From IMG/VR virus record IMGVR_UViG_3300025133_009649, positions 1-64,000 of that record: DNA of 64,000 nucleotides; one strand, 5' to 3'. The first letter of the stretch is position 1, and each line of letters begins with the position of its first letter. The notes beneath the pieces were generated by a model. The model made no database searches. It was not told the origin of the DNA and saw only the letters and a list, made by a program, of their open reading frames with translations. Of the stretch, positions 19,130 to 60,487 are shown one piece after another. The translations under genes were made by a program, and so were the position numbers. This DNA comes from a virus.

Positions 19130-22100
19130 ATGGGAGATGGTGGAATAGTTAAGTGGGCTGGATCTGTAAAAGATGATGATGGTGACCAAAATTTTGGCAA
19201 TCAGCAACTTCATGAAGGACGGATGCATCTAAACCGTACTAAGGTAGTGCCAACTTTATTAAAGACCATGCTTGAAAGGGAGTATGGTTACACTGACATT
19301 GTGAATAATGGAATTCCTTATATAGCTACTGTATTACATATTTTTAACGGACCTAATTCAGAGAAAGGAGTTTCGACCAAAGGCGTGCAAACAACAGTGG
19401 TCAATGCAGACACTTGGTTCGTAAACAAGACGGTTTCTAAACCAACTGAGAGAAGAGAAAGAATAAGATTACTGGCCAGAATACCAGAGTTTGATACGGG
19501 GCTAAATTGGCCCATGGATAAGGAGGATTTTATTCGTATATGTGCTCATGGAGAATATCATGAGCGCTCGACACAGAAGACCACTGGTCTCGCAGACACT
19601 TATGCTATTCAGGTTGGCGATCAGATTTTGGTTAATCTTCGAGGAAAAAATACTTCTCCATCCGACGGCCGCCAGGCAGGTTGGATAGTTGGTCTTTCAC
19701 GGAAAGCGTTACTTAGGGAGGCACTCGTTGATATGCCTCATCCCAGTATTCAATTTGCAAAACCCTGTAAGTCTAACAGAGACGTTTCCGGCCCTCCCCC
19801 TGAATATTTGCGAGGTGAAACAGAAAAAGAGCCGGCTATAGCATACCCTATAATAGAAAAATATAAAACAAGAATTAAAACCGGTTTATACGGCAACGGT
19901 ACTCCACAAACAAAATATCATTTTAATAATGCTTTATCGGGAATCCAAGGTGCAAAAAAATCTTTTAAATATGATGTACCTGGTCCTGCTCCTGGAAAGG
20001 ACGATGCGTTTATTTGGGTTGGCCACTTAAGAAACAACGGTTATTTAGATTTAGTAGATCGTCCTATCAGTCTAGGGAGGGAAACTATTATATACGCCCC
20101 CATGACCTTAGACGTCACGTTGCCGATAGAATTAAAATATTATTTTCACGACCGCGCGGGCTTCGGCCATGCATGGGTTAATGGACCAGATACAAAAGTT
20201 GGAGAGTCAATCGATTTAGCTGAAACCAAGGGGAACGATTTTAGAGAAAAAATTGCTCCTGCAATTAAAGATATGATTAAAGATAGAAGAAATTTTATTT
20301 TAGTTATACCTGAAATGTCTTATTCTAGAGGATTTGGAACAAAGTCAAATGATGTTACTAGGACAAAAAAAATGTCTGTGGGTAAAAAAGCCGGCTACAC
20401 CGTTGGCACCGCGCACAAAGAATCACCTGCAGTAATAAGAACCAAGATTACAAAATCTGAAGTTTTCAGTACTGTTAAGGAATATTTAAGAGGCCTCCCT
20501 GCTGGAAAAATACTTATTGATGAAGGCGTTTTTACAGATGACGAAATTTTAACTAGCAATGTTTTGCAAAAAACTCATTTAAGAGAAAGAGAAACTGTTA
20601 CTTTTGATGGATCATTCACTGGTGGGTTATTTGGGAGCTTTCATATTGAAGTACTTGATATAATTAAAAATTATTTAGGTAAATACGCTTTTGACAATAT
20701 TAATTATATATCTATTTTGGCCGACGGCATGGGGGCTATAAATTTAGCATCTATAATTAAATTTACGACATACAGCACAGTACACAACAATGCTGAGAAT
20801 AGTTTTAAATCTGTACCTATTAATAGAATTGATTATGTTGAGAGTTCAAAAGATATGTTAGAAATTTATAATTTTTCTAAGATGCCTGCCTATTCAATAT
20901 ACGAAGATTATTTAATTTTCAGGGCTGAAGGTTCTGAATACTTTGAATTTAATTATATTACAGAAAAGAATTCTACTCATGGACGAAGCTTTTTTAATAA
21001 ATTAGGACACATCGATTCATATGATAACTCTATTAAGGCTGCCAGCTCCCACGGTGACAAAAAATTCTCTTTAAAAGTCGCTCCCAACACACCATTACAA
21101 AAAATAGAAGTTGCTGCAGACATCAAGGCGGTAATTAATATGCATGTATTGCCAAAAGAGCCTTCATCAATTACTAGCGATACGACTAAAAAAGCAGCAT
21201 ATGCTTTTGTTATGAAAGATGATTTTGTTCTTGCCCCGGATACTTTGGTTACTTCTGACTCTAACTCTTCTCAGACCCCAGTTAATGATTTTGTGCCAGA
21301 CCACGCCGGCGCCATGGCATCTAAGCCATCTGAAGGCAACGCAAATAAATATGAAAAAGAAATGCAAGGTCTAAAAGTTAAAATAAATACTTTTGCAAAT
21401 AACGTATTAAATTCTCTACAAACTAAAAGTTTTTGCACAGATCCAAAAACACAAGACTATTGTACGGGAGCCGGCGGTGTAAGTTATGAGTCGAGCATCG
21501 CAGCACACTTCCAAAACTACATAGCAGATTTAGAAAATTATTTTTATTATTTTGTGTTACTTCAACATGAATTAAACATTGCTAAAATTAAAAATGTCAA
21601 AAAAGAACTTCAAAATTATTTGAATAAGGATCCTTTTAATATTAGTGAAGAATGTGATGATGCTGCAGCAAATAATAAAAATGAAAGTTGGTTTGATGAT
21701 TATAAAGATAATTTTGGCGGGATGTTTAGGGGTTATGTTGGTACTACTGACAAGTATGATATGAAAAAGGCAGCAAAGAAGCTTGCAGAGGGCCCAACAA
21801 AACTAGTGATGCCATCTGATGCTGGCAGGCGCGATTTTTTTGTAACTGACGGAGACATCGACGACGGCGCATCCCGCGGCGCATATGCAAATATTATGTA
21901 TAATGTCGCCCGCGAAAGAGCTTTAAAAAAGATTAAAGATGATTTAGATGAGTTAATTGAAGCTGCAGAACCGGTGCCTGCCACAGCCCCTAATCCGGAT
22001 TGTGATCCACCACCAGTAACCTTGGAAGAAATAAGAACTATGGTACCAAGCCGATCAGCTAAATATTCTAGATTTTCTGAACAATCATGTGCTGGTAATA

Positions 22101-23290
22101 ATATAAAAGTTGTTTCAACTTTCAAAGAACTAAAAACCATGCTTTCATGGAATCCAAAAACTAAACCTCTGAAGGAGTCTATGGGTTCAGATAAAAAATA
22201 TACAGATTTAGTGACTAACATCGACACCGAGGCTGTTGGATACAAAACAAAAAGATTTACATATAGAGCTAGGGCAAAAATCAATCCAGTTTATAAAGAA
22301 AGTCCGCTTGTTTGGTCATGCATAGCAGAAAAAATAAGAGAGTCGTGGGAGGCCGCATGCAATATATCAAATTATATACCATTTACAATCACTTCCGGCA
22401 TCAAAGGTGTTATTGGTAATCCTGGTGTTTCTGCGTATAACAATGGAATGTCAATTGATTCATTTGGATTATCAATAAATGTGGACCCACCATTGGCTGG
22501 TTATAGCGGTGATGGAAAACCAGTATATAGTGTTTTTACTGGAATGTGGACTCCGGGTTTTGTTGAAACATCTGCACAAGAACTTTATGATTTAGGTGTA
22601 TTATACACCAGCCCAAATACAATGAGCGAATCTCCTTTTGCTATTGTCACTTCTGCAGGAATTGGATCACGATATTTAGATAACGCATATGAATCTGGAT
22701 TTTATTATGATCAAAATATGTCTGACATCACCCTCGCCGAAGGTCACGGAGAACTAGCAGTGCCGGAATTTGAACCGCCCGCCGGCGTCGGCGACGCCTT
22801 GGAAGACCTAGGTATGCCACATAAAGCGAAGAAGCCTGTTGAGGCTGATGGTGGTTTTATAATGCCTGAACCAAGATTGGTACCACCAGATCCAAGATTA
22901 ATAGAAAATTGGTCAGGCGCACCCGATTCATATGCCGGCCCCTCCGGCATCGGTGAAAAAAAAGCAAGTTATAACAAAGATATAAAAGAAGCTGAAGGAC
23001 AATTAATCGTCCCGCCTGGAGCGAATCCTGTTGTATGGTTGCTAACTTTTTGTGAAAGAAGCGGCATGAAGTGGGGAAATTCTTTTTTCTTAAGAAAAAG
23101 ATTTGTAGGAGGCAAACAAACTTGGACTCCTGCCGAACAAAGAAGAATAGCGGCTATATATGGTATTCCTGATATAGTTGCTAGAATAAACGCTATTTCA
23201 TGGCCTGTAACTTCGGTTGATAAACACATGCATTTTCAATATTATGCCGGAGGCCCAATAATAACTTGGGAAGAAATAGAGGAGAAGTAA
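19130..23290 (+). CDS. Large tail-tip protein with C-terminal M15-type peptidase domain (probable tail lysin/hub)
   Basis: This is a 1386-aa virion-type protein. Near residues 150-190 'YAIQVGDQILVNLRG' followed by 'GWIVGLSRKALL' looks like the OB-type beta barrel of T4 gp5-like hub proteins. The C-terminal 300 residues match M15C/L-alanyl-D-glutamate peptidases: 'FTITSGIKG', 'SAYNNGMSID' (Tyr1103, Gly1106, Asp1110), 'RSGMKWGNSFF' and 'DKHMHFQYY' (His1368). The expected first zinc His is Tyr1103, while Asp1110 and His1368 are kept. The role is probably peptidoglycan cutting at the tail tip during entry, if it is active. It is followed 3 nt later by the next tail gene, which has a GAGGAG ribosome site. 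Confidence 0.75.
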   Translation: MGDGGIVKWAGSVKDDDGDQNFGNQQLHEGRMHLNRTKVVPTLLKTMLEREYGYTDIVNNGIPYIATVLHIFNGPNSEKGVSTKGVQTTVVNADTWFVNKTVSKPTERRERIRLLARIPEFDTGLNWPMDKEDFIRICAHGEYHERSTQKTTGLADTYAIQVGDQILVNLRGKNTSPSDGRQAGWIVGLSRKALLREALVDMPHPSIQFAKPCKSNRDVSGPPPEYLRGETEKEPAIAYPIIEKYKTRIKTGLYGNGTPQTKYHFNNALSGIQGAKKSFKYDVPGPAPGKDDAFIWVGHLRNNGYLDLVDRPISLGRETIIYAPMTLDVTLPIELKYYFHDRAGFGHAWVNGPDTKVGESIDLAETKGNDFREKIAPAIKDMIKDRRNFILVIPEMSYSRGFGTKSNDVTRTKKMSVGKKAGYTVGTAHKESPAVIRTKITKSEVFSTVKEYLRGLPAGKILIDEGVFTDDEILTSNVLQKTHLRERETVTFDGSFTGGLFGSFHIEVLDIIKNYLGKYAFDNINYISILADGMGAINLASIIKFTTYSTVHNNAENSFKSVPINRIDYVESSKDMLEIYNFSKMPAYSIYEDYLIFRAEGSEYFEFNYITEKNSTHGRSFFNKLGHIDSYDNSIKAASSHGDKKFSLKVAPNTPLQKIEVAADIKAVINMHVLPKEPSSITSDTTKKAAYAFVMKDDFVLAPDTLVTSDSNSSQTPVNDFVPDHAGAMASKPSEGNANKYEKEMQGLKVKINTFANNVLNSLQTKSFCTDPKTQDYCTGAGGVSYESSIAAHFQNYIADLENYFYYFVLLQHELNIAKIKNVKKELQNYLNKDPFNISEECDDAAANNKNESWFDDYKDNFGGMFRGYVGTTDKYDMKKAAKKLAEGPTKLVMPSDAGRRDFFVTDGDIDDGASRGAYANIMYNVARERALKKIKDDLDELIEAAEPVPATAPNPDCDPPPVTLEEIRTMVPSRSAKYSRFSEQSCAGNNIKVVSTFKELKTMLSWNPKTKPLKESMGSDKKYTDLVTNIDTEAVGYKTKRFTYRARAKINPVYKESPLVWSCIAEKIRESWEAACNISNYIPFTITSGIKGVIGNPGVSAYNNGMSIDSFGLSINVDPPLAGYSGDGKPVYSVFTGMWTPGFVETSAQELYDLGVLYTSPNTMSESPFAIVTSAGIGSRYLDNAYESGFYYDQNMSDITLAEGHGELAVPEFEPPAGVGDALEDLGMPHKAKKPVEADGGFIMPEPRLVPPDPRLIENWSGAPDSYAGPSGIGEKKASYNKDIKEAEGQLIVPPGANPVVWLLTFCERSGMKWGNSFFLRKRFVGGKQTWTPAEQRRIAAIYGIPDIVARINAISWPVTSVDKHMHFQYYAGGPIITWEEIEEK

Positions 23291-23293
23291 TTT

Positions 23294-24301
23294 ATGTCAA
23301 AAATAAGTAAAAAAGCTAGAGATTATTGTGGTTTGACAGACGAATCTAAACGAATTCTTGCTAGCTTATCCGATGACGAAGCAGAAGATTATGGGGGAAT
23401 ATTCGGAGGGGTAAGAAAACAGGCAATGGTTAGAAGGCTTACAGTGCCATCAGAAAATATAGTTGGTGAAGGTCTAGATAACAATGCTTTTATTGTTATT
23501 GGCAATGATCGCACAGGAGCCCCCCATACAGGTAATGGTGGGAGGGGGCACACTCAATGTGACGCTATAGATATAGTTGCAGGACTAGGGGGCTATTGCC
23601 CGCAGGAGGTAGAAGAAATTGAACTTGAAGATGGGAACAAAACTACGGTAAGGGTAGAAACTAACCCTAATTTTTATCTTGATGCAGCAAGAATCTATAT
23701 TTCACAAAAAACAGATGTTGACAAAAATTTTGGGATTGGCGGAGAATTCGGGCCAAAAAAGCCAGATGCAGGAGCCCCGGATGAAGAAAATATAGGTAAG
23801 TATGGGGGAAAATCAGCTATAGCCATAAAAGCCGATAATATCAGAGTTATTGGAAGGGAGAGCTTAAAACTGGTCACAGGAACAGATAAATTCAATTCTC
23901 AAGGTGGCGAGGTTAGTGGCAAGCATGGTATAGAAATAATATCAATGAACGAAGATAGCAAACTACAACCCATGGTTTTGGGCGATAATCTAATTAGGGC
24001 ATTGAGCAATATAATAAAATATGTTGAAAAATTACAAAACATTGTTCAAGCTCAAATACATTATCAAGCAAAATTTAATAAAGCTGTGATGCAACATAAT
24101 CACAGATCACCATTTTTTGCGCTTGAAACGTTGCCTTCAGAGGAATGCATGATCAGTAATATACAATGTGATGTTGAAACCATGCTTAATACTGAATTGT
24201 CTTTTATGTCTAGTACTTCAAATGGCGCCGGCATGAGAGCAAACTACTTGTCACCAAGTGGTCCTAAATATATTTTAAGTCCTCTTAACAAGGTAAATTA
24301 A
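23294..24301 (+). CDS. Probable tail-spike/needle or baseplate-hub protein
   Basis: GAGGAG lies just upstream. The 335-aa product has a repetitive beta-rich centre ('SAIAIKADNIRVIGRESLKL', 'GIEIISM') in the style of short beta-helix or spike segments, then a helix ('LIRALSNIIKYVEKLQNI') and 'MQHNHRSPFF'. A Gly-rich part lies around residues 75-95. The position directly after the gp5-like lysin and before the giant protein suggests a tail-tip or central-spike part (inference). No signal or membrane segment is present. Confidence 0.6.
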   Translation: MSKISKKARDYCGLTDESKRILASLSDDEAEDYGGIFGGVRKQAMVRRLTVPSENIVGEGLDNNAFIVIGNDRTGAPHTGNGGRGHTQCDAIDIVAGLGGYCPQEVEEIELEDGNKTTVRVETNPNFYLDAARIYISQKTDVDKNFGIGGEFGPKKPDAGAPDEENIGKYGGKSAIAIKADNIRVIGRESLKLVTGTDKFNSQGGEVSGKHGIEIISMNEDSKLQPMVLGDNLIRALSNIIKYVEKLQNIVQAQIHYQAKFNKAVMQHNHRSPFFALETLPSEECMISNIQCDVETMLNTELSFMSSTSNGAGMRANYLSPSGPKYILSPLNKVN

Positions 24302-24313
24302 AAAGGTAAAAAG

Positions 24314-27300
24314 ATGCAACTTGAGATAAGTAAAAATAAGTTAAAAGAAGTTCAGAGTGCCGTAAAAAAGTGGGCCGACGTTGCAATACCGATGTGGCAG
24401 AAAATGTTTCAATGGTTGCTGCCCGACGATTTTGATTATGGGTATAGTGGAGAAAGTGTAACTGCTCCAAATTTTAGTGATTTAATTCTTGTTGAGGATG
24501 TTCAAGCTGAGCAACTAGCTCATTATGAGTCAGGATTAGGTTTTTTAATACAAATTAATGCTACAATCAAGAAATATCATACACAAAAAATCAACTGGGA
24601 CGGCGCCCCGCTCGTAAACGGTGAGGTTTTTAGCAACGCCGCCTGGCCTGAACAAGACAAAATTAATAGCGAATGGTGGCATGAGGACTATTGCGCAGAT
24701 ATAGTTGATAATCTCCTCCAAGATGTCAAAGTTTTACAAAACAGTCCCTTATACAATACAGATCCGCAACTCTTGACCGCTATAAATCTTAATTTCGACG
24801 GTGCTGATCTTTCTAATAAAGCTGATGCAGTAGTAAAGGCGGCAGGTGAATATTTGTCATTGATGGGCTTATCTTTCTCGACTAAACATGAAATTAGCCC
24901 TCCTCCTGACGAAGTCAGCGCTTTATCTCCATGGACAATTGCTAGTGACAAGAGTCTAGAATCTCAATTTGAAAATTTACGGCCTACGTCAACACACTAT
25001 ATCGCCTTCATGCTGGATGAAACAAAATCAGATCTCGACTACCCCGACGCGGGGCCGGGTGGATATTATTTACCGGTACGTTATTCTCCATGGGACGAAA
25101 CTAATCATGAAAGCGATCCAAAAGAAGTAAAAGACTGGAATGACGAGAATTTTAGATATCTGACCATGGATGGAGATTTTTTTAAGCCAGGATCAAATGC
25201 TTCACAACTTGCAAATGGCATTGAATTACCACATGGTCTTGGAGTAATTGTAACTGAGATAATTAACAGTAAAACTGGGGTATGGGTTGGCTTCATAATA
25301 GATGAATTTGATCCCCTGACCCTCGACTCTGACATAGCTGTAACGAATAGCTCTTGGCATAACAAGCTTGATGATTTTTATAAATCGGGGGACTATGGCT
25401 GGAACGACCCGGCTCACAAACGCCGCGTGCAGCGTTTTTTGTATACTAGGCCAGAGTATTTAAGAATAAAACAGGATTCTAAGGAGATAGGAACAGATAA
25501 TATAGAACGATCGGCTCTGGATCCACCTATCTCTGATAACATCGTGGTTTCTGAAGAATCAATTGCTGAGGTAACTAAGAACTTGCCACCTGCTCTGGGC
25601 AAAATTAATCCACAAGATAACAAAAATTGGTTAACTTTACTTCCCGGCCAAGTAGCGCTTTCTTATTATAGTTTTATAAAACAAAATCATAAACAAACTG
25701 AAAAAAAGAATTATGTTGTTGACCACACAGCAATAATAAATAATCCGTCTTTGCGATATTCTGAAGGATACTTTTATTTTGTTGTAGGCCAATCACCTAG
25801 AATGTCTGAGCGCGACGCCATCGCCTTACCTAACGAAACAGCAGGCGACACTCTAGAGCAAAAAAAGCTTTATGCTTCAGCACAATCGATTGATCTTGCC
25901 AAAGATAAGGCTTGGGAAGCCTTGCTTAAGCATTTTGGCAAAGATATGGACGAGATAGAAAGCAATCCCTTAATACAGCGGTTAAAAAGAAGTTTCTTTG
26001 TTACAGCGGCATCTCATGTAAATATCAATACAACAAATCCAAATAACCAGAATGTTTTATTCGCGATTCGGGCAAGCTACATCGATGCTCTTCCTGAGAC
26101 AAGAAAACCTTATTTTAATGACTTTGACGATACAGATTTCGCAGGAGGCCGAAGCTTTTCGTTTCAGTTTTTAGCAAAAGAAATGGGCAAAATTTGCAGT
26201 GATTTGACAAATAGCTTAACTGGAATAAAAAAGAAAACGCAGGCAATAAAGGCTAATCAACCTTGGATGAAAGACGCCGCTGGACAACAGTTCAACATGA
26301 AAATCATTGAGGACTTTTTGTTCGATTCTAAGACTACTGTTCATTCGGGAGGCAGCGCACGTCCAGGCCAGTCGCTTATCGGAGGAGCATCCACCGCCGG
26401 CGGCTTTCCAGTATTGTTATCAAATTTCTTTAAAAATCAGGTTTATCCACGAACAACAAAAAATGATTATATATCTAAGCTAATTAGCGAAGCCGGAGCT
26501 TTGATACTATCTTCTAATTCTAATCCAGATGATCCAGATCATGTAGTCGAAATTGGGATAAGGGACAATGGCCTCGTAGGCTCTGATGTGAGATTAACCA
26601 TTTCTTATATCTTATTTTCTCCTGATCCAAAAGTTTTAAAGAATCTCGGCGAAACAGAAGAAGGCGAATTGACTGGTCATTTTAAATTATTCTATCATGA
26701 TCCTTATATAACTGAAGATGAATATAAGACGGATACTATCCCAAGAAGCGCCGTTCCTTTACGAATCGGAATTCCTCTTCTTCGACAAAATTTAGAAGGT
26801 GTGTACCCGTCAATGGCTCTTCACTACCTTTTATCACATTCTAGTATATTAAGTGGATATAAATCGTTAGAAGGAAACGATGAAGCCACACCAAAAGCCT
26901 GGCAAGATTATTTATTAAGATATTCAGTGCCGCCGATAGCTATTTCAGCACATCCTAGACTACCCAAGGCTGATAATATAAATAACTTAAGTTGTGAAGA
27001 GCTTATTAAAACTTTGGACAAGGCCGGTAACGTCTCAGGCTACGAACAACGAATAATAATGGAGAGAATATATACTAATCCTGGATGCAGAAAAGAATAT
27101 TATAGAAAATTTAAAAAGTCTACGCCGGCGAGCGATCCTGAAATGACCAGGAAAATGTTAGAAAGTAAGGCTGCTGAATCGGAAAATCTTGATGGTAAAT
27201 CATCATCCGGAGGGGTATCTCAGCAACTTTCACGTCTTTATAACGTTTTATTGAACACTCTTGATATAGAGGGCATTATTCAATTACTTATAGCCTGTAT

Positions 27301-37096: not shown

Positions 37097-37122
37097 ACCT
37101 ATTCCTGGTATGATTTTAATCG

Positions 37123-37136
37123 TTTAACTATTTATA
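37123..37136 (+). promoter_or_regulatory. Candidate late promoter motif before gp25
   Basis: TTTAACTATTTATA lies in the 69-nt gap between the giant gene and gp25, 29 nt before the ATG. The identical 14 bases recur at 60520-60533 in another of the few gaps. The last eight bases read TATAAATA, the T4 late octamer, on the opposite strand. Orientation and function are open. Confidence 0.4.
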
Positions 37137-37165
37137 CATGTATCTAGTATATCAAGAGGAAGCAA

Positions 37166-37564
37166 ATGAGCAGTATAGGGCCAAGAGTACCTTTGCAAAG
37201 GGATCCCGACACATATGGATTTTATCTAGCTGTAACTCAGTATAAAGATGAAATACAACAAAATTTAAAAAATCTTCTTTTAACTTCTCCGGGTGAAAGA
37301 ATGATGAACCCCAATTTTGGCGTTGGATTAAGACATTTTTTGTTTGAACCTAGAATTCATAGTATTACTGCTATGAGGCAAAAAATTGAGTCTCAAGTGA
37401 GAAGATACATGCCGTTTATAAGAGGTCTCAAGGTGCAATTTAATGCTGGGTCTGATCAGGAATATTTAGATAATTCAAATATTTTATCGGTTAATATTAT
37501 TTATGAGATACCAAATTTAAATTTGTCTACTAACTTATTATTACAAAAAGAGGATATTAGTTAA
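37166..37564 (+). CDS. 25: gp25-like baseplate wedge protein
   Basis: This 132-aa protein is the same length as T4 gp25. It carries the family core 'LLLTSPGERMMNPNFGVGL' followed by 'RHFLFEP' and the C-terminal 'IIYEIPNLN'. gp25 and its homologues in all contractile tails (W of P2, TssE of type VI secretion) join the wedge to the sheath and start sheath growth. AGAGGAAG upstream supports the ATG. It is followed 2 nt later by the gp6-like gene, the usual pair. Confidence 0.94.
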   Translation: MSSIGPRVPLQRDPDTYGFYLAVTQYKDEIQQNLKNLLLTSPGERMMNPNFGVGLRHFLFEPRIHSITAMRQKIESQVRRYMPFIRGLKVQFNAGSDQEYLDNSNILSVNIIYEIPNLNLSTNLLLQKEDIS

Positions 37565-47174: not shown

Positions 47175-47211
47175 TGTATAATCTAATTATATTATAGGAT
47201 TGAGGCAGAAA

Positions 47212-50200: not shown

Positions 50201-52599
50201 CAGGTTTTACTCAGTTACGCCATGGTAAATACTTTTCAATGATAAATAATTATTTGTCCGAAACAATGGAATTTTTTCTAGCGGATGTTACTAGTTTTAA
50301 TACAAAATTGCCTATTGTGACGACGAGCCCTTTCGATTCTGGCCCAAACCCAGTATCACCTATCACACCGCAGTCAAAAGAATATTTGATGGAAGTTTCT
50401 TTAAGAATGGGGAAATATCAAGTTATGTGTGAGGGCCCTCGCCAAGCTGGAATTGGTGATCCTGATTCGAATTTATTTGATCAAGCCGGGACCGACCAGG
50501 GCTTTTGGCTGAGAAACTCCTCTATGAGAGGGTATATATATGGTCCTCCTATGGAGATCATACCTGCCAACGCCCCGGGCGCCTCGGGCAATGATACTTG
50601 GTATCCAAATTCCGCCGTCGCCATGAAAGACGCTGTGATACAAGATATCGATTATTCTTCTTATTTCGCTGCCAATTTACAAGACCCTGCATATCATGCT
50701 TATACACCGCCATATTTTTATGGAAAAAGCTCTATGATTTATAAATTTTCAGCTGAGGAAAGTGACAATATAAGCCTCCCCAATCTTGTAAACAAAATGG
50801 CCATCGCGGGCGTAACGGGCTCATATTATGTTAACACGTATGACACACCAACTTACAATTTCACAACCCCGAAGAAAGGCCAGGTAATTGCAAATGAATC
50901 ACTATCATTAACAACACCAGCAACTGATTCGACTTCTGGTGGTGCAAGAGCAAAAATGAAAATAGATGCTAGCCTAGGCGGCATCGAGGGCCTTATGGGA
51001 CTTTATTCCAGCCCAATTGAGGTAGCAAATTCGGAAGCTGGAGAGGGCACCCACAATTCGGCTCTACACGTCTGGACCATCGCACCAGAGTGGATTTGCC
51101 CAGTTTTAGATTTCGAACAGGACCGCGCCGCCGTGAGAAATCATGACAATACGTTTTCATTTATAGAAAACAGCTTTCATGACGTTACTACAGGCCGCGG
51201 CATGTGGGGCGGGTACGGTACTGATCCTTATGACTCTTTTTTAATGAACAAAGTCGGCGGCGCTGGATTTACATCTTCAGGTAAAAAAGGTATCTATATT
51301 GAAATAAATGATTTTTTGTTAGAGCCCACTACAAATAAAAAAGAAGCTCCTATAGACAAAGATAGCACTAGTGGATTTTATGACTTGCTGGATATTAAAA
51401 AAGGCGCCGCCACCGGCTCCCTTTCTAGGCTTTTGGGCATTCAACCTGAAAACACAAGAACAAGTTTTCCAGTAGGCAAGTTCGCTAGCGGCAAGAAGAT
51501 TCATGAAGCCATTATTTTGATACCATATATTGATAAGCCTATTAGACTTCCACTCGATCCTGAAGTAACATATTCTCAGCAGCATATTCATGGTACTCTG
51601 CATCATGATGAAAGATTATATTATGCAACTCGTGAAATAATACCTGGAAAACATTTTCTGCCAATTAACGAAGAAATTTTTGTTAATACTCTTCATTTTC
51701 ACCTTTTGGAGGCGACAAAACAAACACATCTGAATAAGTTCTGGACCGGCGGCGGTTATAGCGGCCCCTATTCACCTTCGACAATAGAAAAATGGGCTCT
51801 AGTCAGATCTTTGGCAGCAGAAACTGACGTTGGCAAAATGATAAGCAGGTTGTCTTCGTTTAATTCGGTCCATGGTGGGTTCCAGCTTCCTCCTGAATTT
51901 GATTTTATTCACAACGCTTCGGTCCCCCCATTTCAGATGATAGTAGTCCCATTTGAACATACGTTAAAAAAACAAGAGTTGATTGATATATACCAGGGAA
52001 TTATGCCTGATAGCTCATTAACAACAAAAAAAGATGCTAGCTGCATTAGCTCTTTGGAAATTCATCCGACTCGTGTTCCACCTCTAAATCAAATTGCAGG
52101 CGGAGCCCTATTAGATGTTGACTATATACCAGAATTTGCTAGTACCGAGACCAACGCGGCCGGCATTCTCGATGCCGGACATTCAGCAGCACTCACAGGC
52201 TTTTTATCTCCCTTGCCGTTTGTGGATCCTCCGAAAGCTAGCTTCACTGCCGGCCAGCCAACTATGGATATTACAACTATGACTGGTGCTAGCCTCCCAT
52301 ACAAAACGTCTGCAAAATTTTATAAAAATTTACGTTTTATGGTCTTTAAAATAAAGCAAAGAGCTAAAAAGGATTATTCTAATTATAGAAAGGGACAGAT
52401 AATAAAAGCTGTTAATTCAAGAATTAATGATGTTCCGACCCCCGGTGAGGGAAACGGATATCAATTTATAACTGATGCTAATTACAATTATATATCAAAA
52501 AATAAAACAGTCGGCGATGTTTTTGGTGCTAATTGGCCATATGATTATTTCTCTCTGATCCAATCGTTAAAAGTAGATATCACTTTCTCTGACAACTAA
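47212..52599 (+). CDS. Large baseplate/virion protein of unknown fold
   Basis: ATG 47212 is taken as the start, with GAGG at 47202-47205. An in-frame TTG at 47200 is the alternative, but it would lie over the ribosome site. The protein is 1795 aa. It starts 'MATNETLNFISASELVIYQ' and soon has 'FDFVGLNIGIVDPVSSSDN'. It is beta-rich with many Tyr, His and Pro, and has no catalytic motif, signal or membrane segment that I can see. It follows the LamG protein after only 37 nt and may form one functional unit with it. It is virion associated by position. Confidence 0.7.
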   Translation: MATNETLNFISASELVIYQDGDDPYFAGSKPTLDGAGFSEWYAFDFVGLNIGIVDPVSSSDNIVGYPAAAAVTNYINRPVGYGVSGHNDLMSLTSDAAAQTLNPLLHHRNGPYGHPTWKQIRGGQHPVARHFRLNNTMSVDLQWPVDPIYRESLRRERREQQENYNFIEYDIYQEDQNIILSNPVYSDYFSPKLHQYYEPVLTTKHKPLEFKATIPGGGPIRVRTSFMNKMMDFSSDDLNKDLRFSSGIPASALPLGGGIPWKRTNQKYYNIFRMAKATGATLFIYSERLYPREINSYRAFKTKRPNYEEAPGTGHNGYDRALHRLFWKDTQGGDTSTTITSSATSDGTTRLRTVGTALSSVETLQNMNFSSTTLEFLTGSALIYGSSATASLVDGISNLLVNSITNGVVTDRYYHAHASGVIDQKDAHQPYPISLLSSWPLDARDDIYDKPDYLTSSIGGKGLQIGLTPHKGGHYDIVDMDDNLIGSNTLYNTIRHSGQTAISASSVIQAAVNLHTGSAGELVYSTKPTIFYAEGTDHKFVTGGYKAPTASLQYNRHTYPYNTPFYVTNRVRGRNPFYKSYDDFVSQLKYLGRDYSIVPEYRYSDHMDYYNTTYGTTLSAPNKLLFKEAIFDTEALGGDIAHLGNKLVRAVSFMDWSDSIENPPSEELLEIYKASFLILDGADVTSSANATGSYLKTTDRYKYNDISGATAVTPPGFTPSIYTYLGDKTSVDFDGKYATTDSTINFSNLLEIPEGFTEGQDSIPRSVKFKCSIIKKLLPYNGFYPVTRTTQIGNAFKKEFVAASGYTGSMTETPSGFYSCEDQAYLQALLEPFMAPGVLYNSIKSGIAVDYPIYTASMGASDAAAAASRPNYHVPRPFISSSADGSILPLREAGPHHHALSSSYHGGLHMLGASHCIPSILTSFYGARFPFRYLYNLDELELQFGGDTRPSIHLVSDFVDLNRFTQTCTVPGGDCTDSMSGSILIGDPSVTLPDAAGFTQLRHGKYFSMINNYLSETMEFFLADVTSFNTKLPIVTTSPFDSGPNPVSPITPQSKEYLMEVSLRMGKYQVMCEGPRQAGIGDPDSNLFDQAGTDQGFWLRNSSMRGYIYGPPMEIIPANAPGASGNDTWYPNSAVAMKDAVIQDIDYSSYFAANLQDPAYHAYTPPYFYGKSSMIYKFSAEESDNISLPNLVNKMAIAGVTGSYYVNTYDTPTYNFTTPKKGQVIANESLSLTTPATDSTSGGARAKMKIDASLGGIEGLMGLYSSPIEVANSEAGEGTHNSALHVWTIAPEWICPVLDFEQDRAAVRNHDNTFSFIENSFHDVTTGRGMWGGYGTDPYDSFLMNKVGGAGFTSSGKKGIYIEINDFLLEPTTNKKEAPIDKDSTSGFYDLLDIKKGAATGSLSRLLGIQPENTRTSFPVGKFASGKKIHEAIILIPYIDKPIRLPLDPEVTYSQQHIHGTLHHDERLYYATREIIPGKHFLPINEEIFVNTLHFHLLEATKQTHLNKFWTGGGYSGPYSPSTIEKWALVRSLAAETDVGKMISRLSSFNSVHGGFQLPPEFDFIHNASVPPFQMIVVPFEHTLKKQELIDIYQGIMPDSSLTTKKDASCISSLEIHPTRVPPLNQIAGGALLDVDYIPEFASTETNAAGILDAGHSAALTGFLSPLPFVDPPKASFTAGQPTMDITTMTGASLPYKTSAKFYKNLRFMVFKIKQRAKKDYSNYRKGQIIKAVNSRINDVPTPGEGNGYQFITDANYNYISKNKTVGDVFGANWPYDYFSLIQSLKVDITFSDN

Positions 52600-52616
52600 A
52601 ATAAGGAAAATAAATA

Positions 52617-53612
52617 ATGGAGTTTTTTAATAAAAAAGAAGATGTTATAGACCTCCAAATAACTCAGTTTGGAAGACATTTATTATCGAAAGGTCGCTTT
52701 AAACCGGTATATTATTCTTTTTTTGATGATAATATACTTTATGATTCTTCAAGGGCTGATTTTGCTGAACAACAAAATGATACGGAACAAAGAATTAAAG
52801 AAACTCATACTGTACAACCACAAATAGCTATTTCTTCTTTAGAAAAAGAATTCAATACAAGCTACGATATGATATTATCTAATCAAGCAGACGCGAGTAC
52901 TGCTGTTTTACAAAAAACAGCAGAAAAAAACTATGCTTTGCCGCAGCCATTAGGAACGAGCGATATAAATTCAGAATATGCACCGTCTTGGTCTATAAGA
53001 TATTTAAAAGGTATTTTGTCGGGTTCATCTAATAGTCTGAGCTTGCAAGAAAAAAGTGGTGGCAACAGCACGGTGTACATACCACAATTAGAGACGAATA
53101 TAGAAACAGAAATAAAGTTCTTGTCTAGCGATCCTGACCTTCCTGCGGAGGATGCATCTGGCCCTGCACAATCAGATATAATAGTACAAAATAAAGAAGA
53201 TAATTTTGTTTTGTTAAAAGTTATGGAGAGCAACGGCGCATACCAGAAAAAGAATTTTGATATAGAAATATTTGAAGTAATCGATCAGCATGAAGGCGAC
53301 ACAACAATTGAGGTTTTAAGACCTTTGTATTTTACAAAACCTCCAAATCCAAATCCGATCGATCCACTAGATATGCTGGACGAGGTAACACCGGCTGACA
53401 ATCAAGATTATGTTGCACATTATTTTGATTTTTTAACTGACAACGAGATCGACCCAGAAACCTTATGTGTCCATGATCCAACTAATCAAAAGCTTGGTGT
53501 TTTTGCTGATGAGCGTGCAGTTATATGTCAAGATATATTAAATAAACAACAAAAAGTTCCGTTTAATATTTATGAAGGAGGAACTGGCGACGTTCCGGGA
53601 GAAATTTGTTAA
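52617..53612 (+). CDS. Virion protein sharing an N-terminal module with the 60551 gene
   Basis: AAGGAAA precedes the ATG. The 331-aa product starts 'MEFFNKKEDVIDLQITQFGR', followed by 'KGRFKPVYYSFFDDNILYD'. That pattern (Asp, Thr, Gly-Arg, Gly, Phe-Lys, Phe, Asp-Asp, Ile, Tyr) recurs at the N-terminus of the 382-aa protein coded at 60551. The rest is acidic and partly disordered-looking, with 'KPPNPNPIDPLDML'. No known function was recognised. It is coupled to the next large gene by TAATG. A shared docking element for joining the baseplate is one reading (inference). Confidence 0.7.
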   Translation: MEFFNKKEDVIDLQITQFGRHLLSKGRFKPVYYSFFDDNILYDSSRADFAEQQNDTEQRIKETHTVQPQIAISSLEKEFNTSYDMILSNQADASTAVLQKTAEKNYALPQPLGTSDINSEYAPSWSIRYLKGILSGSSNSLSLQEKSGGNSTVYIPQLETNIETEIKFLSSDPDLPAEDASGPAQSDIIVQNKEDNFVLLKVMESNGAYQKKNFDIEIFEVIDQHEGDTTIEVLRPLYFTKPPNPNPIDPLDMLDEVTPADNQDYVAHYFDFLTDNEIDPETLCVHDPTNQKLGVFADERAVICQDILNKQQKVPFNIYEGGTGDVPGEIC

Positions 53613-56600
53613 TGTCAGCGAACGTGTGCACAATATCAGACTTAATTTCAGGTGGTAGTATTCTACCGCATGTGTATTGTAAAAATATTTCTTTAGAAAA
53701 TGGCCCCGAAGAAGGCTCCACTAATGTTATATTAAACTTAGAAATTTTGCAAAGTAAAAAAGAACTAAATAAGAAAAATTATTTATCTGAGCTTACTCCT
53801 TTTGGAAGCTCTTACTCTTTTTCGGATTACATAAACATTCAAATTGTGCCTTTCCGTAACACTTTAAATATCCAGAGATTAGATCCGACCTACAACACGG
53901 ACTCGACCGAGCATCCAGGAAATGCATATGTCCAATCTTCTTTTCCGGCCGGCCTCACGCAGAACCACTATCCCTGGAAGGTCATCGACGAGTGGGGCGA
54001 AAGCACTCAAGCTGGCAGTATCTACTCCTCCGAGCATGCGTACTGGTCGTCGGATGCAGGCATGAGGTTGTTTCCTCTATCTGATTTTCTTCAGCCGTCT
54101 TCCCCAGAGAAACCTACCTCGTCATATGTTCGTGAAGAAACAATATCTGGTGTATCATATTATGTAATATCTTTTGAGCAAGTTTTTACTTATTCAGAGG
54201 CCCTCACGATTACAAATTTAGGATTTTTATTTTATGCATGGCTTGATCCAAGAAAATTTGTAGAGGACATGAATCCTGACCTTTCAAATATTGATCTATT
54301 AACTGATAAACACTTAACTGGACCGGTTAATACGGAAATAGTTTTGTTGGGTAACGAAGTACAAACCACTAGAAAACAGTTTTTCTTACCTAACGGTAAC
54401 CGCTGGAATGGGGCAGTTCATTTACATCTTTGTGATTTAAACCCGGCTCCCGACGGTTATTGTGGAACTGGCCAGGCTCTCGGTGGACCAGCCGGGCCAG
54501 ATGCAAGTGATACTGGATACCAAGGATGGATGGCCGGGGAGAAACATGTTAAAGATGCACCAAGATTGAGGTTAATGCAAACGCCAAATAACATGATACA
54601 AGATTTTAGAACTGAAAGTCCATGGCTGGACACTGCCATGGGCTTAACAAACGCGGAATCGAATGAGTTTCTTGGCAAATCTTTTAATCAACAAATACAT
54701 GTTTTTAGTCAAAATCAAGATGCAAATTGGTTATATAAACATGTTATAAGCCCGTTTCAAAAAGAAACTAAAAAATATTTAACAAAAATAGACAACGCTC
54801 CCGGGCCCTTGGATCGCATAGTTCCACTATATGACAACGATAGTGAATTTTCAAAATTATATATGTCAAGAGACAAAGATAACAACGCAAGGGGAACATT
54901 CTTAATTAATTTTGAAAGACTATTAAGAAATAATTCTGTTCTTTATAACATGCTCGACGGCCCTGCCGCCGCAACTAATTTTAAAATGCAACAATGTTTA
55001 GCTTTTTCACAATTACTAGAATTAAAAGTTTATAGAGACAGAGTGCAGAAAAGACCCCAGGGAAAAACATACGAAAAATATGCTAATGATACTTCATATG
55101 AAGAACCTTCGTATTACGTCGGTACTGTAAGAGATAGCAACCCAGGCGCTGACACCTCGTGGTCCATCGACGGGGCCCTAAGAGTGGTTAACTTAGAAAC
55201 TCCATATTCTGACACAACTATTAATAACATAAAGTGCTTTACATTTAAAGACACTGATGTGGGTGAAAAATCTGCAGGCCTATATCAATATAGAATAGAA
55301 ATGTCTTATAAAGATGGCACTTATTATATGTTAAATAGCCTTCTCAAGAATCTGGTGATAGCAAGATTTACAATGCAAAAATATTATGATTTTTCTTTAG
55401 GATCCTATGTTGTACCGGGCATATTACATCCGGAACATCCGGACGACAGTGTTTATTTGCCAGGTGAACATCCGGATGATACTAAAACACCAGCAAGAAT
55501 ACATCCATATTTTTTAGGGAACAACACATTTGATCCTCAATTCGAAGAGGCCGCGTCCACACGGTTTCCTGATAAACCATGGCTCGGCGCTGACGCGCCA
55601 AATCCTGAAATGACTATATGGTATTTAATAAACCAAGTTGCTTATAACCTTTTTGATCTTAAAGTCAACGGTCTATCCATCAATCCCGATAACTTCAAAA
55701 TGGCCATGGCATCGTTAACTAGTCCTGTTAATGGAAGCCCCCAAGGTATAGAATTTGTAATAAAATTAACCGATAGCATAATTGGCCACTTACATAAACT
55801 TCTTGGGGCTAAAAAGGTTAACAAAACTGGTTCTGAAATAGATGCTACTTCCATCCCATTTGATAGCCAAGCTGGAACAGCATATAATTTAAGTACTTTT
55901 CCTAGTTATAATATTACTCCGTCCACCTCTACTATAAAAGAATATCATACTTTTGATGGCCCTTCTGAACTTCATAAAGCACTCTCCAACGAAGACATAT
56001 ATATAGATTATTTGTCACAACATCAAAATTCGACTGCAGATTATAATCCCGGGTGGGTAGGAACGTACCAGCTATCTTACGCATCTTATTTGATTCGAGA
56101 ACAGCACGACTCTGTTAGAATGTACGCCTCGACAGCAGATCCACTCATTTATAATGGCGCCATGGCAGCAGGCCAGTTTACTGTCAATGAACAGAACGAT
56201 AGTTTTTCTCAGAGTGTCGGATATTTAATGCCATCAATTATAGAATTATCAGATCCATCGGAAGAAGATACTTCTTTTAAATTTAAGACCCATTTCTTCA
56301 AGACCAATGGTCTCGTTACGCCATCGATTACCTACGAAGATTACGATAAAATTTTGGTTGCTTTAATGCTTTATAATATTAACAAAGATAATGCAAATGA
56401 CGCAGATTTACTGGATGCCTTATACAGTCCTACCACGGCCTCTGATACTAGTCTTAAAGAGGCTTATAAAAGTTTATATAGCTCTGCTGGAATAGTGATT
56501 TATGATGAAAATAAATATGCTCAATTTTTAGCTAAAGAGCCTAATAATCTTCTTGAACTTGTACCATGCGATCCTGAAGACGCAGATTACCAAGAGTGCT

Positions 56601-57139
56601 TGGACGACTATCTTCCTGAATATCCGACTGAGTTTTCAGATGGGGATTTGGAAACAGAAAAATATTATAAACAGTTTTTCTCTGATCCTAACAGTATATA
56701 TAAAACACCTGTTGGAAAAATAAATGTGCCATACAACAAAGAAATGCCAAATATATTTAAATTGGTACGCTTTGTGGACGACCCTGGCCTTGGAGGCTCA
56801 ACCCTCCTTGAAAGCGAAAACCAGTCCGGCGCTACCAACGCGCCATTTATAGAAGCTATAAACGCCACCAAACAAGGGATGATACCAAAATACAATTCTT
56901 TTTTCTTTATAAATGCAAATTTATTAGCTAAGATACAAGTTTATACCGGCATACATCATACTAGTTCTCCTATGAAGCACGATGACTATTCTTGGGAAAA
57001 GTTATCTGGGGGTCATCTTAGCGGTTTAACTATTGGTGAGTCACTTCTTTGTAGAATAAAATTATACGATGAAAGAGCAGCATATGGGCTGGAATTACCT
57101 ATTATAAATAAATATTTTTTTATATATAAAAATATATAA
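53612..57139 (+). CDS. Large virion protein of unknown function
   Basis: ATG 53612 overlaps the previous stop (TAATG) and has GGGAG at 53597-53601; the in-frame TTG at 53606 is less likely. The product is 1175 aa. It has mixed beta and loop segments, a Gly/Pro-rich part near residues 285-310, a small internal repeat 'HPEHPDD' then 'EHPDD' near residues 606-624, and a stretch 'FVIKLTDSIIGHLHKLLG'. There is no catalytic motif or membrane segment. Position between baseplate genes makes it a tail-tip part. It ends in a Tyr/Phe/Ile-rich segment ('INKYFFIYKNI'). Confidence 0.7.
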   Translation: MSANVCTISDLISGGSILPHVYCKNISLENGPEEGSTNVILNLEILQSKKELNKKNYLSELTPFGSSYSFSDYINIQIVPFRNTLNIQRLDPTYNTDSTEHPGNAYVQSSFPAGLTQNHYPWKVIDEWGESTQAGSIYSSEHAYWSSDAGMRLFPLSDFLQPSSPEKPTSSYVREETISGVSYYVISFEQVFTYSEALTITNLGFLFYAWLDPRKFVEDMNPDLSNIDLLTDKHLTGPVNTEIVLLGNEVQTTRKQFFLPNGNRWNGAVHLHLCDLNPAPDGYCGTGQALGGPAGPDASDTGYQGWMAGEKHVKDAPRLRLMQTPNNMIQDFRTESPWLDTAMGLTNAESNEFLGKSFNQQIHVFSQNQDANWLYKHVISPFQKETKKYLTKIDNAPGPLDRIVPLYDNDSEFSKLYMSRDKDNNARGTFLINFERLLRNNSVLYNMLDGPAAATNFKMQQCLAFSQLLELKVYRDRVQKRPQGKTYEKYANDTSYEEPSYYVGTVRDSNPGADTSWSIDGALRVVNLETPYSDTTINNIKCFTFKDTDVGEKSAGLYQYRIEMSYKDGTYYMLNSLLKNLVIARFTMQKYYDFSLGSYVVPGILHPEHPDDSVYLPGEHPDDTKTPARIHPYFLGNNTFDPQFEEAASTRFPDKPWLGADAPNPEMTIWYLINQVAYNLFDLKVNGLSINPDNFKMAMASLTSPVNGSPQGIEFVIKLTDSIIGHLHKLLGAKKVNKTGSEIDATSIPFDSQAGTAYNLSTFPSYNITPSTSTIKEYHTFDGPSELHKALSNEDIYIDYLSQHQNSTADYNPGWVGTYQLSYASYLIREQHDSVRMYASTADPLIYNGAMAAGQFTVNEQNDSFSQSVGYLMPSIIELSDPSEEDTSFKFKTHFFKTNGLVTPSITYEDYDKILVALMLYNINKDNANDADLLDALYSPTTASDTSLKEAYKSLYSSAGIVIYDENKYAQFLAKEPNNLLELVPCDPEDADYQECLDDYLPEYPTEFSDGDLETEKYYKQFFSDPNSIYKTPVGKINVPYNKEMPNIFKLVRFVDDPGLGGSTLLESENQSGATNAPFIEAINATKQGMIPKYNSFFFINANLLAKIQVYTGIHHTSSPMKHDDYSWEKLSGGHLSGLTIGESLLCRIKLYDERAAYGLELPIINKYFFIYKNI

Positions 57140-57184
57140 GGTACAAGGAGAAGCGCAAAGTGAAGGAACAAGAAGGAATCATCA

Positions 57185-60100
57185 ATGCTCGGTAGCAAAA
57201 AAAGAATAGTTGTAGACAAAAATATATTTCTAGATCTTGTAAGGGAGGGTCCTGAAAATGTGGCCCCTGGCGGAACCGGCACCGATAAGGCCATTGTTAA
57301 TGATCAACTCATAGACATGAACATGGGAGAGATAATTAGTAATGCCGCAAATTCAGCAAAAGCGCTTGGTTGTTTCTTCCTCCCTTACACTGACGTCGAC
57401 ACACTAAGAGTTGCTTTAGGCAGGTATTGGGATTACGAAGCGAAAACCCAAAGTTATAACACTAATGTTGTTAATATCCCTGACCTCGGCCTCACGCTAA
57501 CACATGGTGCCACAACTGAAAAAATATTCCATCACAAACATCCTGCGACAAATATAATTTTCGGTATGCCAATTACATGGTCACCCTGCCCCGGGGCTGC
57601 CGGTGAAATTGAATATTTGGAAATTGGCGGAAATAGCTCTTATTTTGGTGGTATAAAGCAAGAACTTCTTATTAGTTCTACTTGGAACATGCACTTCGGA
57701 TATCCGAAGTGGGGCGGCGTAAGAAAGTACTTAGGTTTACAAAATATGAGTAAAACTGAAATATCCGATGCTGGATATACAAGAAATTTTGGAACTTACT
57801 GGACTTATTTAATGAAGACTGGGATTATAACAGCTGACGGAAAAATCTTAAATCCAATAATTAAATCAACAAATCTTAATTCGGTTAACCCTCAAGTATA
57901 TTATGATCATTATCATAATGTTATGTCTCCTTATACACCGGATGAACTGAATAATCAGCAGGCAATAATAACTGGGGAGGCTTCATATGCTAGCTATAAA
58001 ACATATTATAATAGTAGAACTTATTCTAAAGATTACGAGAACTTTATCGCAAATCCAATCTATCAAAACTCCTTACCCAATATTCATGCCCTTGCAAAGA
58101 TTGCTAATAATCCAGAATTAGCAAAAAATTCATTTCTAGATTTATCTAATATGATTAATTATATGGAAGCATGGTATAAAGATCCTAGCGAAGCCGAAGA
58201 TCCATCTACGGTTCGTAATGATACTTATAGCAATTTATTTCAACAATTCCCGCTAGAAGCCAGTATATTACTTTATGGCGCCATGGCAGAAGACGATCCC
58301 GATACCATTGACGAGAATGAGCTGGGGGTAATTTTAGAGAGGTTGGTATCTTTGGACATAAAAAACGTAGATGCAGATTCATTATTTATAAAATACCTTG
58401 AAAATTTTAGAAGTGTTATGCTAAATGATCCCCAATTAGACAAAAAACCGCTCGCAGCCGACGCCAACCCCGCCGCCGCCGCGATGGGACACTATGCAAT
58501 CGCCCCCGGTGTAAAAATCGGTGCTTTAGAACATATAAACTCAAATTTGTTATTTGGCTCTAACGCATCAACAATCCTACATAAAGCAAAACAATATAAA
58601 GATTATTTTCCAATGTATTGTGAAATTAATTTTACTGCTCAGAAGACATTATTGGGTGATAAAATCAAAAAATCTAAAATAACTAATTTTTTGGGACAGG
58701 AAATAGCAGCTGCACAATCTGTTTATGGCTGGGACCCGTCGCTCTACCTCGCCGGCTTTTTGCAAGATAATTCAATTAATCGTGAATTTGTTGATTATTT
58801 GGAAAAAAATATATATGAGGATATAACTGATCTAGAACCTGTTGCAGTTCCTGCTTTTAGCGAAACTTGGGTGGAAAGTTATAAGGTAAATAGCAAAAAA
58901 ACTTTTGAATTGATAGGTCGCGATGGCGACGCTGAAGGCGCTAGCGCCGGCGTCTTAAACAAATGGGTCCACGGACTCGACTATAATTCTTCGAACATAC
59001 ACGAGGGCATTGACACCGCTACCGGTGGCGTCGGCGCCGATAACGAATTTATGCCCATGACCGAGGTCGCCACCCCTTCGCCGGCAGAATGGGCAAGAGA
59101 TGTGAGAAATTATGTAGCTTATGTCAGAAACGATCTTGAGGATCCTTATGAAATAAACAATGAATGTAATCCGCTTTTTAAGGCCTTGTTTGGGGCCTCT
59201 TTTGTACAGCACTTAAAAAGTATTTATAACGAGAAAGCAAGAACATATTCAGATATACTAAATGGTGTACCTGCCTATTCTGAAGATTTGTTTTATGTTA
59301 TCAAAAAATTTAGAAAAGATAATGGGGCAGAAGAGGAGCGTAATGTACAAAATATTATCATACCCAATACTTCAGATCTGGATATTGTAGATTATGTTGA
59401 TACACAGGTAAAATATGGCACACATGCAACTTATAGATATGATATTTATGCATATCGCGTCGTTTTTGGTTCAGAATATTCTTATACCTTTGGTGATGGT
59501 TACCCGGTTGATCATATAGACGCCGATGGCAATGCGTCTACGTTAATCGATCCAGCTAACGCTCCCATCTCTGTGGTAAACTCGAATTTTCTTGAAGGTG
59601 TAACTTACGACCCCCAGGGCCCAGGCGCAGGCGTTGAATACGAGGCCGATACCGTATTAGATTACAATTTTACTGTTAAGGTTGGCGTAACTGTTAACCC
59701 ATCAATTAAACTAATTGGTGATAAAATGTTTTCGACTCCTCCGATTAAAATTTTAGATTCCCCCCCTGTTCCTCCTTTCGTCAACATTGTTCCTTATCGG
59801 GCTGTTGGCGACAGAATAAAGATAATTTTAGCTAGTTCAACTGACACATTCAGGGCCGAGCCAATAAATATATTAGACGGGGATCAAGAGAGCTTTCTCG
59901 ATATTATGAGCGCTCAACTTTCAAATGATGGAAAGGTGGAATTTTCATCGGACGATAGAGCAGCTAATTTCCAAGTATTCAGAGTTGCTCGTAGCCAGCT
60001 GGTTGATGTAGCAGGTAACAAAAAAGCAAGGCCGACGAGCTATAATGATTTCTCTCTGCATCCGAACGAAGAAATCGCTCTTATAGAGACTGGCGGCTCG

Positions 60101-60487
60101 GCGGTTTTTGATGATTCAATTTTACCCAATGAAAGATACTATTATATATTTAGAACAGTTGATAATCATGGCCATGTTTCAAATCCAACTCCGGTTTATG
60201 AAGTCGAGTTAATTGATGAAAAAGGAGCAATAAAGCCAATAATCAGAACAATATCCATGGAGCTTGCAGAGAACAAGGCGCACTCAAAGGAACTTCAAAA
60301 ATATATATTAATAAAGCCAACTGACAGGCAAATTTATTTTTCAGAGGAATCAGATGTTAACAGTATTTTTTCAACAAACGTTGAAGGCGACAAAAAGAAA
60401 AAATATAAAATGAGAATAACCTCTAAAGGAACAGGAAAAAAAATAGATATTAATTTTTCATTTACAAAGAACTGCACAAATTGTTAG
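57185..60487 (+). CDS. Large virion protein with a C-terminal FN3-like segment
   Basis: AAGGA at 57173-57177 supports ATG 57185. The protein is 1100 aa. The first 850 residues have no recognised domain; a Pro/Ala patch near residues 420-435 is coded by a GC-rich run. From about 850 to 1012 the chain becomes Ig/FN3-like: 'PPVPPFVNIVPYRAVGDR', 'FQVFRVARS' and 'RYYYIFRTVDNHGHVSNPT', the usual strand-turn pattern of fibronectin type III. The end is Lys-rich ('GDKKKKYKMRITSKGTG') with a final Cys pair. FN3 domains are frequent on phage surfaces and tails. A 63-nt gap with the 14-nt motif follows. Confidence 0.7.
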   Translation: MLGSKKRIVVDKNIFLDLVREGPENVAPGGTGTDKAIVNDQLIDMNMGEIISNAANSAKALGCFFLPYTDVDTLRVALGRYWDYEAKTQSYNTNVVNIPDLGLTLTHGATTEKIFHHKHPATNIIFGMPITWSPCPGAAGEIEYLEIGGNSSYFGGIKQELLISSTWNMHFGYPKWGGVRKYLGLQNMSKTEISDAGYTRNFGTYWTYLMKTGIITADGKILNPIIKSTNLNSVNPQVYYDHYHNVMSPYTPDELNNQQAIITGEASYASYKTYYNSRTYSKDYENFIANPIYQNSLPNIHALAKIANNPELAKNSFLDLSNMINYMEAWYKDPSEAEDPSTVRNDTYSNLFQQFPLEASILLYGAMAEDDPDTIDENELGVILERLVSLDIKNVDADSLFIKYLENFRSVMLNDPQLDKKPLAADANPAAAAMGHYAIAPGVKIGALEHINSNLLFGSNASTILHKAKQYKDYFPMYCEINFTAQKTLLGDKIKKSKITNFLGQEIAAAQSVYGWDPSLYLAGFLQDNSINREFVDYLEKNIYEDITDLEPVAVPAFSETWVESYKVNSKKTFELIGRDGDAEGASAGVLNKWVHGLDYNSSNIHEGIDTATGGVGADNEFMPMTEVATPSPAEWARDVRNYVAYVRNDLEDPYEINNECNPLFKALFGASFVQHLKSIYNEKARTYSDILNGVPAYSEDLFYVIKKFRKDNGAEEERNVQNIIIPNTSDLDIVDYVDTQVKYGTHATYRYDIYAYRVVFGSEYSYTFGDGYPVDHIDADGNASTLIDPANAPISVVNSNFLEGVTYDPQGPGAGVEYEADTVLDYNFTVKVGVTVNPSIKLIGDKMFSTPPIKILDSPPVPPFVNIVPYRAVGDRIKIILASSTDTFRAEPINILDGDQESFLDIMSAQLSNDGKVEFSSDDRAANFQVFRVARSQLVDVAGNKKARPTSYNDFSLHPNEEIALIETGGSAVFDDSILPNERYYYIFRTVDNHGHVSNPTPVYEVELIDEKGAIKPIIRTISMELAENKAHSKELQKYILIKPTDRQIYFSEESDVNSIFSTNVEGDKKKKYKMRITSKGTGKKIDINFSFTKNCTNC

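Follow-up and report, generated by a model that had tools for sequence, protein, structure and literature searches.

The window analysed here is a stretch of 64,000 nucleotides that covers nearly all of a 64,086-base IMG/VR record, and is thus a fragment of a larger genome. It contains a tail-tip (baseplate) gene block of about 45 kb in which a few ordinary core parts are surrounded by giant proteins. With a probability of roughly three in four, this block represents the late baseplate operon of a T4-superfamily marine phage, in which a standard wedge core carries very large outer proteins. The six giant plus-strand ORFs lie where the first-pass annotation had placed them and sum to about 35.4 kb, close to the 35 kb given there. 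Their lengths are 1386, 4260, 2088, 1799, 1177 and 1100 aa; the fourth and fifth, both opening at TTG starts, had been given as 1795 and 1175 aa, while the rest were exact. The run extends on both sides of these giants without large gaps and takes in six further genes that had not been listed before (335, 508, 331, 382, 339 and 388 aa). Because the spacing between genes ranges from a 7-base overlap to about 70 bases, these genes appear to form a single transcription unit. At about 39% GC, 4260 codons in a row would escape a stop at random with a probability of the order of e^-280, and the large ORFs stay open frames in independent contigs. The block comprises the following features.

18137–18832, +, late sigma transcription factor of gp55 type (phrog_234, E 2.8e-7)
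19130–23290, +, 1386-aa tail protein with a C-terminal M15-peptidase-type domain (Peptidase_M15_4, family-level)
22451–22480, +, degenerate M15 zinc motif SIDSFGLSIN (family alignment A5)
23294–24301, +, 335-aa spike-like protein at the gp5/spike position (position, sequence pattern)
24314–37096, +, 4260-aa giant between spike and gp25 (homologues at the same place)
28226–29221, +, core of the giant, aa 1305–1636, common to a distant 2-kaa family (hhalign)
34124–35863, +, lineage-specific insertion in the giant, aa 3271–3850, with a hypervariable patch at aa 3551–3700 (comparison with L003)
35864–37093, +, most conserved, C-terminal part of the giant, aa 3851–4260, with predicted hydrophobic helices and coiled coil (conservation, AF2, hydropathy)
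37166–37564, +, gp25 baseplate wedge protein (PF04965, E 1.5e-16)
37567–39363, +, gp6-type wedge protein (phrog_219, E 4.8e-13; phrog_10646, E 4.7e-14)
39363–40889, +, 508-aa protein with a jelly-roll carbohydrate-binding-type domain (Disaggr_repeat, CBM96)
40908–47174, +, 2088-aa probable wedge-core subunit with lectin-like domains (gp7/gpI position)
41229–42224, +, LamG/pentraxin-like lectin domain, aa 108–439 of the 2088-aa protein (LamG_3, E 2.6e-8)
41508–41957, +, hypervariable LamG core, aa 201–350 of the 2088-aa protein (20–56% identity to L003)
42258–42737, +, helical segment, aa 451–610 of the 2088-aa protein, with a KSKGTEKS-type motif, wedge-core candidate (AF2 model)
47200–52599, +, 1799-aa protein (joined onto the 2088-aa type in other phages)
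52617–53612, +, 331-aa conserved protein (synteny, 46–57% identity in near relatives)
53606–57139, +, 1177-aa fast-diverging outer protein (32–36% identity to near relatives)
57185–60487, +, 1100-aa fast-diverging outer protein with a conserved C-terminal part, aa 685–1096
60551–63915, +, 382-, 339- and 388-aa proteins, the last two being paralogues related to RM378, immuto and Mel-JY01 proteins

The late sigma gene lies directly upstream of the block and holds the same place in all relatives. Matches to the T4 late-promoter consensus TATAAATA number 11 against a chance expectation of 10.6, which is no signal; an Rfam search of this DNA gave no match, and neither tandem repeats nor tRNAs were found in it.

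Judged from the sequences of its relatives, the window probably derives from a marine contractile-tailed T4-superfamily myovirus of the RM378/immuto/Mel-JY01 ('Far-T4') zone. The placement goes through genes of relatives, the capsid (gp23) and portal genes being absent from the fragment. Specifically, the portal of one relative, G015, is nearest to those of Mel-JY01, immuto and RM378, the 339-aa protein matches an RM378 protein, and PhoH is encoded close to structural genes. The last feature is also described for Far-T4 phages (Roux et al. 2015, PMC4360716), in a paper that makes no mention of baseplate genes. Relatives of gp6 occur in 130 IMG/VR contigs, and its full-length matches among deposited phages are Microcystis phage Mel-JY01, Flavobacterium immuto phages and an uncultured 484-kb phage.

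Gene order was read from extended stretches of seven IMG/VR relatives. In near relatives the order runs from late sigma through a small gene, the 1386 slot, a spike-like gene, the 4260 slot, gp25 and gp6 to genes of the 508, 2088/1799 and 331 types, fast-evolving genes and the 382, 339 and 388 types, followed by RuvC, primase, SbcCD and then terminase and portal genes; functions downstream of the window were assigned by reading the sequences, the portal excepted. The synteny of the block is fixed in G001, G002, G010 and G015–G017; G014 and the cultured phages immuto and Mel-JY01 keep it in part. The latter two share the order of late-sigma type, spike region, gp25, gp6, gpI/gp7-type, 382-type and 339-type genes, and their gp6 is 31% identical to that of the window over 98–99%. 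They differ, however, in that the stretch between gp25 and the 339-type gene encodes proteins of at most 1265 and 1336 aa, and in that the 4260-aa slot is filled by small proteins or by a GH19-type endolysin.

Within the core, gp25 scores 60.4 bits against a PF04965 gathering cut-off of 27.2 and matches the gp25 of Prochlorococcus phage P-RSM4 at E 1.3e-12, while gp6 is assigned by its profile matches together with its position beside gp25, and is 63–74% identical to near relatives. These matches bear out the earlier description of a baseplate module with small, recognisable gp25 and gp6 genes amid large ORFs. The T4-like part had been limited to these two genes; it is probably wider, because weak Tail_P2_I matches lie inside orthologues of the 2088-aa protein. 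PF09684 (Tail_P2_I, P2 gpI) matches below threshold in three genomes, each time inside such an orthologue (E 0.0024, 0.013 and 0.024), and gives no match in the window copy; with the matches below cut-off, the 2088-aa protein is not filed as a gpI family member. Its gene follows gp25–gp6 with one gene (508 aa) between and is conserved along with the core. The full-length protein is 55–65% identical to near relatives, its N-terminal 1150 aa are encoded in at least 590 contigs, and the immuto match within it is limited to aa 467–627, which are mostly helices in the AF2 model. On moderate evidence, the 2088-aa protein is probably a gpI/gp7-type wedge subunit with attached lectin-like domains. It resembles P2 gpI (PF09684) and T4 gp7 in its place after gp25–gp6 and in the weak profile matches of its orthologues, but differs in carrying large lectin-like domains and in its length, up to 3.97 kaa where the following gene is fused to it. 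VrlC, the gp7 substitute of pelagi- and cyanomyophages (PMC7029224), was considered as a candidate homologue.

The 2088- and 1799-aa types form a single protein of 2947–3968 aa in G015, G016 and G017, the G017 fusion being matched by sequence in its 2088 part only, and in G014 the string breaks into separate genes after 1155 aa. Such division of one protein string into genes at differing points illustrates how baseplates can grow by domain addition. The 1799-aa protein matches nothing in Pfam or the PDB, and a PDB sequence search with profiles of the 2088-aa N-terminus, the 1799-, 335-, 508- and 1386-aa proteins and the C-terminal part of the 4260-aa protein returned no meaningful match. Deposited relatives of the 2088-aa protein carry no functional names; a wedge-type gene present in at least 590 marine viral contigs marks an abundant phage group with a tail that is almost undescribed.

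The LamG/pentraxin-like assignment of aa 108–439 of the 2088-aa protein combines a LamG_3 match above cut-off with a predicted fold that aligns with pentraxins (Z 20.1, rmsd 3.0, 215 aligned residues, 7y5q_B). In the 508-aa family, Disaggr_repeat is matched by 15 of the 19 members and CBM96 by three. Comparison with L003, which is 98.6% identical to the window in gp6 DNA and 95–99% identical over most aligned DNA, reveals three divergent patches, in the 4260-, 508- and 2088-aa proteins. The patch in the 2088-aa protein coincides with the hypervariable LamG core and is flanked by sequence of 96–100% protein identity; beyond it, aa 426–1150 are 92–100% identical. The 508-aa protein is variable at aa 51–250, with identity down to 32%, and the patch in the giant falls to 36–56% protein identity. 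The LamG-domain divergence, clear in the window/L003 pair, recurs as a milder dip (83–89% DNA identity) in three pairs, L194/L193, L074/L078 and L142/L033, and is absent from a fifth, L167/L163. The L142/L033 pair also shows a sharp patch of 37–58% DNA identity at aa 4003–4153 of the 4260-type protein, in the coiled part near the C-terminus.

This divergence follows the pattern that would be expected for receptor-binding domains and suggests allele exchange of a putative receptor-binding domain, so localised that the lectin-like domain becomes a candidate receptor-binding module. The sharp differences between near-identical viruses likewise suggest that the variable, putatively sugar-binding parts pick the host. 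In the proposed mechanism, the wedge core would consist of gp25 and gp6, most likely joined by a gp7/gpI-type subunit that the helical part of the 2088-aa protein supplies. Outer lectin-like domains, in the 508- and 2088-aa proteins and probably also in the 1799-, 1177- and 1100-aa proteins, would bind surface glycans, and their exchange would change receptor specificity. Glycan binding passed through the wedges would then trigger sheath contraction, while the spike and the cell-wall-peptidase-type protein would help to open the envelope.

At the downstream end, the 1177- and 1100-aa proteins are 32–42% identical to near relatives, against the 63–74% of gp6, and neither has a family or PDB match. 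Homology searches of each part, which had been put forward as a check, identified gp25 and gp6 and returned no family or PDB match for the 1799-, 1177-, 1100- and 4260-aa proteins. The view that the outer part is largely new stands, as most non-core proteins lack an annotated family. Beyond the 382-aa gene, the two adjoining paralogues (61718–62737 and 62749–63915) match each other at a phmmer E of about 5e-11, and larger proteins of Mel-JY01 end in a version of their C-terminal part.

At the front end, the 1386-aa protein had been counted into a proposed very large baseplate or fibre network; its C-terminal M15-peptidase-type domain points away from fibres, to penetration of the cell wall. 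Peptidase_M15_4 (PF13539) matches 5 of the 12 members of this family (best E 1.6e-5), with the window copy below threshold. Seven of 11 relatives, L196 among them, keep the zinc motif SxHxxGxxxD intact; the window reads SIDSFGLSIN there. With its zinc ligands lost, the window copy is not counted among active peptidases, and its M15-type domain has probably lost catalysis. Given the M15 domain in this family, an M23 peptidase gene in the 1386-aa place of the distant relative G015 and a GH19-type endolysin beside the spike region of Mel-JY01, cell-wall hydrolases recur at this place. The adjacent 335-aa protein lacks Pfam and PDB matches; its position is conserved in relatives, it aligns to the distant family at an hhalign E of 3.5e-35, and its position and sequence pattern point to a spike.

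The 4260-aa giant, situated between this putative spike and gp25, is the longest copy seen of a family that spans 1,932–4,260 aa. Complete homologues measure 2786–3954 aa in the near clade and 1932–2150 aa in a distant clade at the same place, to which the core of the giant aligns with an hhalign probability of 95% (E 3.8e-8, 276 columns). The record length of the window copy is due mainly to the lineage-specific insertion of about 580 aa, found nearly whole only in L003 (same contig as L240) and partly in L004. The protein has no family, PDB or phage-record match. A search for related loci with single sequences of the 4260-aa core and the 1100-aa protein found nothing, and one with alignment A2 found 78 loci. 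In the AF2 model of a compact homologue, L027, of which only the secondary structure was used at its mean pLDDT of 61, the C-terminal half consists chiefly of helices, plus a single mixed beta region. The richness in beta and jelly-roll domains noted earlier for the outer part is borne out by the 508- and 2088-aa proteins, with their jelly-roll or lectin-type domains, and is not supported for the giant. Against PDB folds this model gave only coiled-coil matches of low Z, and in BFVD it matched three unnamed viral proteins (E 8e-7 to 9e-4) that are probably other members of the same family. Up to six hydrophobic segments occur in the giant, and none in the 2088-, 1799- and 1386-aa proteins. The assignment of the giant as a helical structural baseplate protein between hub/spike and wedges is the most likely one, at about even odds, and its hydrophobic helices may touch the host membrane.

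Giant genes beside gp25–gp6 are already known, which tempers the earlier claim of exceptional size. The cultured P-RSM4 carries, directly after gp25–gp6, the 6603-aa PRSM4_106 (60366–80177; L252 6367–26178), annotated as a virion structural protein. This giant, T4-like GC 643, has relatives in 480 phage records, variously annotated as virion structural protein, baseplate wedge or gp7. It resembles the window giants in lying beside gp25/gp6 in marine T4-like myoviruses, in the same kind of operon. It differs in being a single giant after gp6, whereas the window has several on both sides of the core. Homology between the two sets was considered and rejected: phmmer and family HMMs gave no match, and the best hhalign result (17% probability, E 0.0014) represents no significant similarity. 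The window set is thus a different, undescribed one, and its coexistence with an unrelated cyanophage giant suggests more than one origin of giant baseplate genes among marine T4-like phages. For T4-like cyanophages, virion proteomics has been published, and the available portion of that paper does not name the 6603-aa giant (PMC3037559).

Several readings compete over what these giants do. The 1799-, 1177-, 1100- and 4260-aa proteins are putative baseplate proteins by operon position, and synteny likewise argues for a virion location of the giant proteins. Another reading, in which most of the large ORFs encode secreted or intracellular late products located in a tail operon by chance, would fit the lack of a recognised domain in several of them. 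It is improbable: every relative read keeps them syntenic with spike, gp25 and gp6, the 1799-aa part occurs fused to the wedge-type 2088-aa protein, and the equivalent-place giant of cultured cyanophages is annotated as a virion structural protein. For the 4260-aa protein alone, with the other giants remaining in the baseplate, a tentative possibility is a spike-associated cargo that leaves the virion on contraction and uses its helices to form or extend an inner-membrane DNA channel. Cargo slots beside spike genes often vary in content, and the spike–gp25 slot of relatives indeed holds 2100 aa, 631 + 280 aa, 371 + 139 aa, or a GH19-type endolysin plus 190 aa. The hydrophobic segments peculiar to the giant and its predicted, mainly helical C-terminal half point the same way. 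However, segment number is not constant among homologues (6, 6, 3, 1 and 1), the large size variation and lineage-specific insertions would suit a structural protein equally, and the protein resembled no known ejected protein. Broader still, and rather unlikely, is the proposal that 3–4-kaa spike–gp25 proteins form a new class of spike-associated, membrane-active proteins that are delivered with the spike, help to build the route of the DNA across the envelope and evolve by internal domain swaps.

A tail tape measure of a very long tail would also be long, largely helical where modelled and adjacent to baseplate genes, and low-probability matches to tape measures did appear, among many others. 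This role is very improbable for the giant, since in G001 and G015 the usual tape-measure place, immediately behind sheath and tube, is taken by another gene of about 700 aa, immuto has an annotated tape measure elsewhere, and the length of the giant differs between 1.9 and 4.3 kaa among members of a single syntenic group. The 700-aa candidate is assigned by position alone, with no tape-measure match in PHROGs. Lying between spike and gp25 while another candidate holds the usual place in relatives, the giant was rejected as a tape measure.

Further observations concern regions outside the block. The sheath-type genes of relatives are long (G001 108407–111700, 1097 aa; G015 166923–169718, 931 aa; stitched coordinates), and the enlargement may thus extend beyond the baseplate. 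Just before the late sigma gene, positions 2481–17334 of the window encode, as read from the sequences, glycosyltransferases, two NAD-dependent sugar epimerases, and proteins of UDP-glucose dehydrogenase, radical SAM/B12 and cytidylyltransferase types. Near the window start, a minus-strand ORF (148–882) resembles a secreted lipoprotein with the trypsin-like protease motif GGSSGSP, which is unusual in a phage.
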